From: a virus
IMG/VR virus record: IMGVR_UViG_3300030098_001471
Coordinates: 1-26,669 of that record
DNA length: 26,669 bases
Direction: 5' to 3' (one strand)
Part shown: positions 13,314-26,669 of the stretch, one piece after another
How positions within the stretch are numbered: the first letter of the stretch is position 1
How the letters are laid out: every line of letters begins with the position of its first letter
Translations under genes and position numbers: made by a program
The notes under the pieces: model-generated
What the model was told of the DNA's origin: nothing
Seen by the model: only the letters and a program-made list of their open reading frames with translations
Database searches by the model: none

Positions 13314-13667
13314 TTACTCACCTCCTTCTTCTAGTTCAGAAATAACTTTTTTAAGATCGGGTAAGGAAATATTAACCCGAAACTTTTTTACTTTTCCGTG
13401 TTCCGATAATTTTACTTTAGTTATCCCTCTTAAATGATAACCCGATGATGTTATCCAAAAACTCATATTAGGCTTTTCTATTGGTTTAGGAAACCACTTA
13501 TATTCGTATGCTCCACCAATTATAACTCCATTTTCATCTTTCTCGTAAACTTGTCTCCATTCACCTTGCTCACTTTCGTTTTTTATTTCTTGTATCTCAA
13601 TATCTGAAGTTTCTCCTTTATGCTCTCTTAACTTTTTTTCAAAAGATTTATTAAATTTATTTTTCAT
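13314..13667 (-). CDS. Early hypothetical protein (117 aa) with the repeated GGATAGTAGTA leader
   Basis: This 117-residue charged protein has a Lys/Glu-rich N-terminus, a middle (EYKWFPKPIEKPNMSFWITS) rich in aromatics, and a C-terminal helix (ISLPDLKKVISELEEGGE). No family recognised. Its ribosome-site region, AAAGGATAGTAGTATAATG, is the same as that of the first early gene except for one base before the ATG. Both starts can therefore pair with the same segment of the early leader (14099-14108). Confidence 0.7.
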   Translation of the reverse strand: MKNKFNKSFEKKLREHKGETSDIEIQEIKNESEQGEWRQVYEKDENGVIIGGAYEYKWFPKPIEKPNMSFWITSSGYHLRGITKVKLSEHGKVKKFRVNISLPDLKKVISELEEGGE

Positions 13668-13669
13668 TA

Positions 13670-13680
13670 TACTACTATCC
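13670..13680 (-). promoter_or_regulatory. Second copy of the GGATAGTAGTA ribosome-site element
   Basis: GGATAGTAGTA stands two bases before ATG 13667 and is identical to 14065-14075 before ATG 14062. Ten of its bases are complementary to the leader segment at 14099-14108, so this second start may share the first one's control. Confidence 0.6.
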
Positions 13681-13705
13681 TTTATTTTAATTTATGTTTA
13701 TACCC

Positions 13706-13747: not shown

Positions 13748-14062
13748 TTATCTAACAAACTTTTTTAAACGTACCTCCGTTTTATCGAATATCGTTTTTG
13801 ATTCTTTTACCTTAAAGGTGCCTCCACTAATTGATTTGTGTTTTCTAATTGATTTAAAAACCTTTGGATGCTTTTTAGATTCATTATAAAAAGAACTTAA
13901 TTCAATATGTGCAGTTCCATCCTCTTCTAGGTGAATGCTAATATCTGTTGTATGATCATTATTAGACAAAAGAAACATAGTTTTATTTTCACCTTTAAAA
14001 ATATAATTTTGTTTTGAAACTTTCCAATTAGCCTTGTTTTTTATTTTAGTACTTATTTTCAT
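13748..14062 (-). CDS. First early gene, hypothetical protein (104 aa)
   Basis: This 104-residue basic protein (begins MKISTKIKNKANWKVSKQNY; contains TTDISIHLEEDGTAHIELSS, a beta-hairpin-like stretch) is of no recognised family. It is the promoter-proximal early gene, with AAAGGATAGTAGTA before ATG 14062, and it is followed by a small hairpin. Its 120-base leader folds and can hide this ribosome site. Being first in the operon with a dedicated leader suggests an early takeover or regulatory protein; that is inference from position. Confidence 0.7.
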   Translation of the reverse strand: MKISTKIKNKANWKVSKQNYIFKGENKTMFLLSNNDHTTDISIHLEEDGTAHIELSSFYNESKKHPKVFKSIRKHKSISGGTFKVKESKTIFDKTEVRLKKFVR

Positions 14063-14064
14063 TT

Positions 14065-14184
14065 TACTACTATCCTTTTAACACCGCCCCGGCTGGATGA
14101 TAGTAGTAGTGTGTGTTTGAGATGCGGAATCCCAAGAGGAGAGCCGAGGCGGTATTTAATTTATTATTTAAATCTACTATCATC
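14065..14184 (-). promoter_or_regulatory. Structured early leader with alternative pairings that include the ribosome site
   Basis: The predicted transcript begins near 14184. Segment A GAUGAUAGUAG (14184-14174) is perfectly complementary over 11 bp to segment B CUACUAUCAUC (14106-14096). B overlaps UACUACUAUC (14108-14099), perfectly complementary over 10 bp to GAUAGUAGUA (14074-14065) in the ribosome-site segment C, two bases before ATG. Between A and C a 12-bp stem with one G.U pairs ACCGCCUCGGCU (14153-14142) with AGCCGGGGCGGU (14094-14083). Its 47-base loop holds a second hairpin (14135-14129/14123-14117, loop UCCGC) and B. B with C would form an H-type pseudoknot hiding the ribosome site; B with A would free it. 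No known riboswitch class recognised. Confidence 0.65.
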
Positions 14185-14190
14185 AACAAG

Positions 14191-14218
14191 AGTATAAACA
14201 ATAAATTTCAATTGTCAA
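14191..14218 (-). promoter_or_regulatory. Early sigma-70-type promoter
   Basis: The perfect -35 TTGACA (14218-14213) and -10 TATACT (14196-14191) are separated by 16 bp on the minus strand. They start four bases after the U-run of the tail-operon terminator, and no gene overlaps them. A start site about 7 bases downstream is near 14184, exactly where leader segment A begins. This is the clearest promoter in the window and would drive the early genes, and possibly the whole circuit. Confidence 0.85.
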
Positions 14219-14221
14219 AGG

Positions 14222-14250
14222 AAAAAAGGCGATAAATAAAATTACCGCCT
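14222..14250 (-). terminator. Rho-independent terminator of the tail operon
   Basis: On the minus strand AGGCGGUAA (14250-14242) pairs with UUAUCGCCU (14235-14227), with one G.U in the stem and a short U-rich loop. UUUUUU follows. It lies 15 bases after the last tail gene and directly before the early promoter. Confidence 0.85.
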
Positions 14251-14264
14251 AGCGATAGACAGAT

Positions 14265-15017
14265 TTAAGAAAGTTGTTCCCTCAATGATAATGATGCTGA
14301 ATACCTTTCAAAAGCTACTTCAGTAAATGCAATCGGTGCATCAAGGCGAACATAATTAAAATTTGAATCATCATACCATAAAAACTTTTTACGATTGGTA
14401 ACTGCACTTTCAAAGGTTTGAAGGTTGTTTTTAAAAGTTTGGCTAATTGAACTAAAATTTAATGAAAAGGTTGAAATCGGATTATGTGTTTGAGTTCCAA
14501 ACTCAACTCCTCCGATACTTCTTTGAATTTCTGTTCCGAATATTTCTTGCTCTGCAATCCCTACATCGGGATTCATTTCAAAAGATAATTTTTTTCCAAG
14601 AATAACCTCTGTTAATCCGGTGAATGTAGCCGAGCCACCTCCTTGCCCAAGAAAAAAATATCTATAAGTTGCTTCCGTAAAATTATTTACTTGCCAAGCA
14701 TTAGCAGAAAAGGAGGATGTTAGGCTTGCTATGGTTGTTCCGTTTGTTCCATCCGATGATCTTGCTAGGAAAATATCATCAGTTTCAGCCGCATTCATAT
14801 AAAGAGCGATTGAACTAACTGCGACTGCACTTCCAAAATCAATTCTTATTGCATCAGTATCTACATAAGAAGTTACCGCTAGGCTAATAGATTGATCGTT
14901 GATTCGATCTTCATTATCAATAGTATCACTCGAAGCATTGCTAAAAGTGTTTGAGCTATAAGATCCATCAATTATCGTTGCTTCGGTAAAGCCTACCGAA
15001 TCGTACATAAAATACAT
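14265..15017 (-). CDS. Distal tail protein with carbohydrate-binding-like fold (250 aa)
   Basis: This 250-residue beta-rich protein is the last gene of the tail operon. About residues 20-130 (DGSYSSNTFSNASSDTIDNE, TDAIRIDFGSAVAVSSIALY, YRYFFLGQGG) read like a galactose-binding or discoidin-type jelly roll: 'I.IDFG....VS.IAL' and a later 'YRYFFL'. The C-terminal half (EFGTQTHNPISTFSLNFSSI) is a second beta domain. It follows the large hub-like gene by a one-base overlap and may sit at the tail tip and touch surface sugars. That is inference from fold pattern and position. Confidence 0.55.
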   Translation of the reverse strand: MYFMYDSVGFTEATIIDGSYSSNTFSNASSDTIDNEDRINDQSISLAVTSYVDTDAIRIDFGSAVAVSSIALYMNAAETDDIFLARSSDGTNGTTIASLTSSFSANAWQVNNFTEATYRYFFLGQGGGSATFTGLTEVILGKKLSFEMNPDVGIAEQEIFGTEIQRSIGGVEFGTQTHNPISTFSLNFSSISQTFKNNLQTFESAVTNRKKFLWYDDSNFNYVRLDAPIAFTEVAFERYSASLSLREQLS

Positions 15018-26219: not shown

Positions 26220-26669
26220 TTAAGTTACTTTGTGAGTTAGCTCAACTCCATATGTATCAGCTAATTCTACAGATCCGCAGAAAATGCTACCTACATAATC
26301 GGTTTTAAGTCTAACCGCATCACGCTCAACTTCCATCCTCATAAGATCACCAGCATATCCAAATCCGATAGCCATCTTTGAGAATACTGCACCGATTGCA
26401 TTGTTTGAAGCAATAGCAATCTCTGGTGATGAATAAATATCCATTCCGGCTAATGCACCAATGAACCCGGTTTTTAACATATCATCTTGCGAGGAAGGTG
26501 ATCCACCGAATTGATTAGAAGTAACTAGATCATTTGATAATCCATAAGTTCCGTATATAGCTCTTGGATTGTGAACCATTGAATACGGAGCCGGTGCGGC
26601 TTCTGCTTGAAGTGTACCCAAAGCCGCAAACAAATCATCAACGCTTATCCCGTTAGATGTATCGTTTGA
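26220..26669 (-). CDS. Major capsid protein, intronless allele (C-terminal 149 residues)
   Basis: This frame is open from the window end (SNDTSNGIS...) to the stop at 26220 and carries the C-terminal half of the coat protein. At the site where the intron sits in the other allele the bases read ...ATGGTTCAC..., with no insertion. The protein is identical to exons 1 and 2 over the shared part (26368-26669 with 1-207 and 452-546) while the DNA differs at 21 of 302 positions, all synonymous, including one serine changed from AGT to TCA. The C-terminus (SKMAIGFGYAGDLMRMEVER, VELADTYGVELTHKVT) is typical of the strand-rich end of HK97-fold coats. Confidence 0.85.
   Translation of the reverse strand, partial: SNDTSNGISVDDLFAALGTLQAEAAPAPYSMVHNPRAIYGTYGLSNDLVTSNQFGGSPSSQDDMLKTGFIGALAGMDIYSSPEIAIASNNAIGAVFSKMAIGFGYAGDLMRMEVERDAVRLKTDYVGSIFCGSVELADTYGVELTHKVT

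Follow-up and report, generated by a model that had tools for sequence, protein, structure and literature searches.

A conserved phage early leader with competing base pairings as a candidate translation switch

How might a phage control its first early gene through a leader whose parts can pair in mutually exclusive ways? The question is raised by a phage record of 26,669 bases (the window, meaning the whole stretch of DNA analysed here), nearly all of whose genes lie on the minus strand. A sequence-only reading had proposed its early leader as a candidate new cis-regulatory RNA in which a central segment, B, pairs either with a segment A at the 5′ end or with a segment C at the ribosome site of gene 1 (Table 1). 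Comparison with relatives supports this proposal of a new cis-acting RNA with competing pairings. In our best reading, the leader is a translation switch or a c4-like antisense element governing early genes. We found no description of the element in the open-access literature, to which the search was limited; as an RNA control element it seems to be both widespread and undescribed. It was located by its anatomy alone and is supported by co-variation.

Table 1. Features around the early leader of the window
Feature	Position	Strand	Remarks
Tail gene	14265-15017	-	Ends upstream of the leader; then terminator-like hairpin, promoter, leader, gene 1 and more early genes
Intrinsic terminator-like hairpin of the upstream tail operon	14222-14253	-	Equivalent present in L083-L086
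Early promoter	14191-14218	-	TTGACA 14218-14213, 16-bp spacer, TATACT 14196-14191
Segment A, GATGATAGTAG	14174-14184	-	Starts at predicted +1, G14184; AUG 14183-14181
Linker from A to P1, A/U-rich	14154-14173	-	15-30 nt in relatives
P1 5′ arm, ACCGCCTCGGCT	14142-14153	-	15 bp when extended with G.U
P2 hairpin	14117-14135	-	7 bp, loop UCCGC
Segment B, TACTACTATCATC	14096-14108	-	Partner of A via 14106-14096, of C via 14108-14099
P1 3′ arm (P1′), AGCCGGGGCGGT	14083-14094	-
Segment C, (G)GATAGTAGTA	14065-14075	-	Overlaps gene 1 Shine-Dalgarno AAAGGA (14078-14073)
Leader open frame	14070-14183	-	From the 5′-terminal AUG; 37 codons, then TAG TAG TAA inside C
Gene 1	13748-14062	-	104 aa, no family; ATG 14062-14060
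Second C copy, AAAGGATAGTAGTATAATG	13665-13683	-	At start of gene 2 (13314-13667); complementary to B 10/10

Anatomy of the Leader

All three segments were found on the minus strand, and A pairs with B (CTACTATCATC, 14106-14096) at 11 of 11 positions, as had been described. The 10/10 pairing of C (14074-14065) also held, with the correction that its partner is TACTACTATC (14108-14099), two bases off the stretch of B first proposed. Since the two partners share 8 bases, the A:B and B:C pairings are mutually exclusive. The remaining anatomical claims were borne out as well. C adjoins the ribosome site and ends two bases before the gene 1 ATG. The 12-bp stem P1 joins 14153-14142 to 14094-14083 and reaches 15 bp if G.U ends are counted, with a single base between the end of B and its 3′ arm, and the 7-bp hairpin P2 lies where it had been drawn. 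The predicted transcript start, 7 nt after the -10 hexamer, is the first base of A. Two features had been missed: the sequence of A is nearly repeated in C, and A contains an AUG at +2 from which the leader frame is open.

Together with P1, the B:C pairing is an H-type pseudoknot. A:B together with P1 is a pseudoknot too and, judging from the lengths, could stack B on P1′. That A:B pairing releases the ribosome site, as had been suggested, is plausible. The nested fold of the window leader alone (-32.0 kcal/mol, z = -2.0) is only modestly unusual, so that one sequence is no proof and the case against chance is comparative.

Two further points concern the window at large. An origin of replication at the leader was considered and set aside: GC skew stays negative throughout the window and does not turn at 14.1 kb. 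One protein seems to be split over positions 433-960 and 26220-26633 (common stretch LFAALGTLQAEAAPAPYSMV), which suggests a circular or overlapping assembly.

The Layout Recurs in Relatives

Because gene 1 is without relatives, neighboring genes were taken as anchors: the terminase, the adjacent tail protein, a second type of tail protein at that place and an early protein. As IMG/VR anchors, gene 1, gene 2 and the large tail protein retrieved none. With these anchors, the same layout (5′-terminal A, stem P1, usually P2, loop segment B, P1′ and C beside the start codon) was found in a further 32 records of IMG/VR. It occurs once in each genome and at a constant locus, the early-operon promoter right after a tail gene. 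The promoter keeps its position relative to the element in relatives. Collapsing identical leaders left 28 distinct leaders with 11 different A sequences; all are from metagenomic contigs, and their transcript ends are predictions. In L083-L086, for example, the same promoter and order of parts follow the tail gene in quite different letters: A is GATGAGACAATT, P1 is AGAGGGAGC/GCTCCCTCT, P2 is GCCC-UUCC-GGGC, B is AATTGTCTCATCC and C is GGATGAGA. L018, L026, L030, L059 and many others carry further versions.

The phages with the element are uncultured and probably marine. Against annotated phages, neither megablast of the window early region nor tblastn with gene 1, the adjacent tail protein, an early protein and the L018 tail protein gave a match. 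The terminase did find relatives there, all below 60% identity (best ~38%), and hence no close cultured relative. A tail-protein profile had no match in bacterial genomes and so named no host.

Co-variation Sets the Pairings Apart from Chance

All loci were scanned on both strands with a descriptor requiring A:B of at least 9, B:C of at least 7 and P1 of at least 7 pairs, correctly ordered ahead of an ATG. The descriptor matched the early leader in every genome having one and almost nothing else, the extras being a weak match (score 24) in L111 and an opposite-strand mirror match in L090/L196, where the leader is in part a palindrome. Nothing comparable came from dinucleotide shuffles: there were 0 matches in shuffles of the first set of loci, and 605 kb of shuffled loci yielded one weak match with a score of 24, compared with 28-40 for real leaders.

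The partners co-vary in A:B, B:C, P1 and P2. Across the 11 A classes, cognate partners were far more stable than non-cognate ones for A:B (-14.1 vs. -7.3 kcal/mol), B:C (-12.7 vs. -6.7 kcal/mol) and P1 (-19.4 vs. -7.0 kcal/mol). When partners were re-dealt among these classes, 0 of 5000 arrangements were as stable as the observed one, for each of the three pairings. In a plain MAFFT alignment with three misplaced rows left uncorrected, 88.8% of A:B cells were paired, compared with 71.2% in shuffles; the A:B covariation score was 0.387 vs. 0.087 in shuffles, a value reached by 0/500 shuffles and by no slid register (at most 0.101). Element-anchored counts over the 28 leaders located the variation. 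Positions 0-4 of A:B are invariant (GATGA/TCATC), positions 5-8 show two or three pair types and are paired in 27-28 of 28, those from +6 to +8 being paired in all 28 with 2-3 types each. P1 is free to vary in its letters but pairs throughout, with 2-5 standard pair types per position in the 28 leaders. The P2 hairpin is kept with altered stem letters in most relatives and is absent from L026, L028 and L030. Allowing G.U in P1 joined broken stretches and gained Watson-Crick pairs in 16 of 27 leaders, compared with two when A.C was allowed, which points to RNA of the sense strand. Leaders within a class are closely related and not independent, and the number of independent events is therefore nearer ten than 28. 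Conservation and strong covariation in relatives, which the sequence-only reading had named as its check, were thus both found.

The 5′ End, the Leader Frame and the Energy Balance

The predicted start includes A, at an equal place in most relatives. GATGA is invariant in all 28 distinct leaders; for 21 of them it begins 6-7 nt downstream of the best -10 hexamer, and for the remaining 7, which have uncertain -10 calls, 4-5 nt downstream. The invariant GAUGA puts an AUG at the predicted +2. In 12 of 13 representatives, the frame that starts at this AUG has no stop before C, with a shuffle expectation of ~0.2 each; the remaining two leader frames contain stops. In most leaders the frame enters gene 1, and in L059 and its kin it ends in TAATG at gene 1. 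A conserved leader peptide was ruled out: codon changes between close leaders were 27 synonymous vs. 85 non-synonymous, and close pairs showed no codon-position or synonymous bias in the leader frame. Because the peptide is not conserved, use of the 5′ AUG and ribosome traffic over the leader frame are inferences only. If the 5′-terminal AUG is used, the element would offer a direct test of the trade between leaderless and Shine-Dalgarno initiation on one mRNA.

A:B is the weaker pairing in no leader: its advantage over B:C ranges from nil to 4.5 kcal/mol (-14.5 vs. -13.1 kcal/mol in the window), and these near-equal energies fit the need of a two-state switch. The spacing is more variable. 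Of the 21 tabulated leader variants, 12 have 0-1 nt between B and P1′ and the others have 5-14 nt, and P1′ lies 4-17 nt from C (4-7 nt in several leaders). The short P1′-C loop may strain the full B:C pseudoknot.

Additional C Sites and a Variable First Gene

In the window, the 23-nt ribosome-site/start region of gene 1 recurs before gene 2 (13661-13683; 96%) and is complementary to B. Relatives likewise have sequences complementary to their own B directly before other start codons. A whole-record search for GGAGATGATn(0-5)ATG found 10 extra leader-strand sites in 7 of 8 GGAGATGAT-class records; 25 other records had none on the leader strand and two on the opposite strand. GGATGAGACAAAATG was present in 4/4 L127-class records and in no other records. 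Two other classes that were searched (GATGATAAC and GATGAATAC) showed no clear extra sites of their own. C thus recurs before other genes in three classes, each time matching the genome's own B, a class match that favors recognition by pairing over a mere habit of sequence and is compatible with B acting within one transcript or in trans. The genes behind the extra C sites encode a DNA methyltransferase and several proteins without assigned function. C-type sites were seen in L026 (5289-5301), L028 (8546-8558), L030 (2687 and 8456), L011 (4737), L127 (6132) and L219 (6688). A code-like scheme is suggested, in which the letters of A, B, C and the extra C copies shift in concert between phages and the device itself is retained.

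The first gene itself is hypervariable: the 28 leaders precede 21 unrelated gene-1 protein families. Near-identical leaders stand before unrelated first genes in L093 (3848-4000), L094 (3878-4030) and L104 (3859-4010) and in L083/L085. In both sets, the change of cargo falls exactly at the start codon. The leader acts like a constant control unit to which different loads are attached, the early cargo genes being swapped as modules, and the slot that it drives is a likely place for host-takeover genes.

A Second Group Divides the Two Contacts Between Loops

A second group (group II: L153/L156, L164, L172, L181, L218, L221, L122/L123 and L099) differs from the leaders described above (group I) in having the P1-P2 hairpin upstream of the early promoter, either directly behind the tail gene or in the corresponding position. 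The main loop of this hairpin matches the 5′ end of the early mRNA over 9-14 nt (14/14 in L181, TTAGTTATGAATAA with TTATTCATAACTAA; 11/11 in L221), and its P2 loop matches the Shine-Dalgarno region over 5-9 nt (TAACTCCAT with ATGGAGTTA in L164; six bases in L122 and L221; five in L218). The early mRNA again has an AUG or GUG near the predicted +1. L099 is an exception, its Shine-Dalgarno match lying beside P2 and not in the P2 loop. A group II descriptor was rejected as a stand-alone detector, being too weak against shuffles, and the group II cases rest on position together with two matched loops.

Two further cases stand apart. L100 is a member overlooked by the descriptor owing to one G.U pair, and L117 keeps A:B (14/14), P1 and P2 and is without B:C. 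Given L117 and the separate loops per target in group II, a strict A/C toggle is not universal. The constant theme is a loop that covers a 5′-terminal start and, through that loop or another, a Shine-Dalgarno start.

Comparison with Known Systems

That the leader falls in no known RNA class, as first suspected, was confirmed with the Rfam 15 covariance models, which gave no family match in the window or in group I and II loci. Matches to U6atac, Rota_CRE and SNORD74 were below threshold and off-target and were set aside.

The nearest working analogue is c4, which is encoded just upstream of its target on the same strand. Like c4, the element is a phage-encoded structured RNA with loops complementary to a phage mRNA ribosome site (B:C in group I, the P2 loop and the Shine-Dalgarno region in group II), and group II is very similar. 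The c4 antisense RNA of phages P1 and P7 has loops that pair with the ribosome site of its target, the ant mRNA (PMC12197685; c4 is also listed in PMC2864571). However, the c4 model (RF01695) matched neither the window nor the loci of either group, at the gathering threshold or up to E = 5, so that the leader is not filed as c4. The leader also differs in that its loop targets its own mRNA 5′ terminus as well, in that group I holds element and target in one short leader in mutually exclusive pairings, and in its genes.

In hok mRNA, the extreme 5′ segment pairs internally (tac/fold-back), and alternative pairings govern a downstream start through kinetic refolding; the switch is triggered by 3′-end processing, and the antisense partner Sok is separate. 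The leader shares the internally paired 5′ segment and the alternative pairings over a downstream start, but no 3′ partner is seen for it, and it is unrelated in genes, layout and sequence (the last compared via Rfam only). In the RepY/repZ leader of ColIb-P9-type plasmids, a short leader frame, translational coupling, a pseudoknot and an antisense loop govern one gene. The combination of leader frame, pseudoknot and antisense loop is similar, whereas that pseudoknot activates translation, and neither a 5′-terminal start nor class-matched extra targets are known there. The T4 gene 32 leader pseudoknot was described in a 2010 review as possibly the only viral case in translational autoregulation (PMC3014915). 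It too is a phage leader pseudoknot linked to translation control, but this classic example lies 67 nt upstream and binds gp32, whereas here the pseudoknot itself lies over the ribosome site and competes with another pairing. The SAM-II riboswitch of Sinorhizobium meliloti metA lies over the Shine-Dalgarno sequence, with a second in-frame start downstream (PMC9373788); the leader resembles it in its structure over the Shine-Dalgarno sequence and its further in-frame start and differs in having none of the conserved ligand-binding core of SAM-II.

The trait that defines a leaderless mRNA is an AUG placed at the 5′ end or close to it (PMC9031893). An AUG at the predicted +2 in group I, followed by an A/U-rich open frame, and an (A/G)UG near the predicted +1 in group II would resemble this trait if the predicted 5′ ends are right. 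Coding selection on the frame was not found, although the frame is kept open. A difference is that the 5′ AUG region, whose use is likewise supposed, is hidden by another segment of the same RNA. For leaderless translation, one review regards riboswitch-type control as improbable except within the coding sequence (PMC9031893), and if the 5′ AUG is used, it is there that this element lies.

A Proposed Mechanism and Its Alternatives

We consider it probable that the early leader is a conserved base-paired element controlling translation initiation of the first early gene, with A and C switching through B. B, displayed by P1 (usually with P2), would be an "anti-start" sequence with two partners, the mRNA 5′ terminus A, whose AUG is one base from the 5′ end, and the Shine-Dalgarno/start region C of gene 1. 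As transcription proceeds, A would be made and met by B before C is transcribed, so that the newborn RNA would keep C open and allow translation. A ribosome at the 5′-terminal AUG, 5′-end processing or another factor might then free A, whereupon B would move to C and close the Shine-Dalgarno start. Both B and C would be opened again by a ribosome that passes over the leader frame, through in-frame read-through or through stop and restart at C. In phages with extra C sites, B probably acts there too, along the transcript or in trans, like c4 of P1/P7. A more specific proposal, made tentatively and with less confidence, is that one antisense loop reads two look-alike starts (the 5′-terminal start codon and one or several Shine-Dalgarno starts), sets the mode of initiation and coordinates early genes through a common ribosome-site code.

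The P1-P2-B module could instead be a trans antisense RNA, or be processed into one, that represses all C genes, with A only a self-titrating or anchoring site. The group II hairpin, which lies outside the early transcript and has two antisense loops, points this way, as do class-matched C sites before unrelated genes and the published complementarity of c4 loops to the ant ribosome site (PMC12197685). We nevertheless find such a c4-like repressor rather unlikely: the group I hairpin is part of the early mRNA and P1 is not followed by a terminator; A is fixed at the predicted +1 and forms the strongest pairing with B, neither of which a plain trans repressor needs; and Rfam finds no c4 match. 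Still less probable is a shield for the 5′ end, in which A:B and P1 hide it and slow RppH/RNase E decay, B:C being secondary to the resemblance of A and C. Such a shield would explain why most leaders have A at the predicted +1, why B and P1′ are 0-1 nt apart in 12/21 variants and why L117 has A:B without B:C. It sits badly with a B:C co-variation as strong as that of A:B and with C-type sites away from 5′ ends, and group II would require protection in trans.

Three related repeats near a promoter, with A over +1, also recall DNA operators, A, B and C being direct or inverted repeats bound by a phage repressor. P1 and P2, however, co-vary without a common sequence, the bridges are G.U on the sense strand with hardly any A.C, and C and its extra copies lie at ribosome sites, some several kilobases from the promoter, all of which makes operators very improbable. 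H-type pseudoknots over the Shine-Dalgarno sequence are found in the preQ1 and SAM-II riboswitches, and the resemblance raises the idea of a pseudoknotted leader that binds a small molecule. We give it the least credence of all. No common aptamer core, and no other support for a small-molecule aptamer, was found in the alignment and pair tables; besides GATGA/TCATC, which is pairing or start codon, and the A/U-rich linker, no unpaired core is conserved. Moreover, the downstream genes are unrelated (21 gene-1 families behind 28 leaders), and no Rfam riboswitch matched. The translation switch through B remains our preferred reading for these uncultured, apparently marine phages.

Other Structured Elements near the Early Genes

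Two other structures were observed in the loci searched. In L054, a GC-rich, apparently structured stretch (700-900) without an Rfam match lies between short ATGATGATTAACAAT repeats ahead of the early genes. In L112, L113, L114, L151, L159, L161, L173 and L175, a different structured element lies up to ~420 nt after the tail gene: a small HTH-like gene is followed by a hairpin of the GGGCAGCACC...GGTGCTGCCC type with a CTCTCTCTC loop just before the next ATG, and this loop resembles an anti-Shine-Dalgarno sequence.
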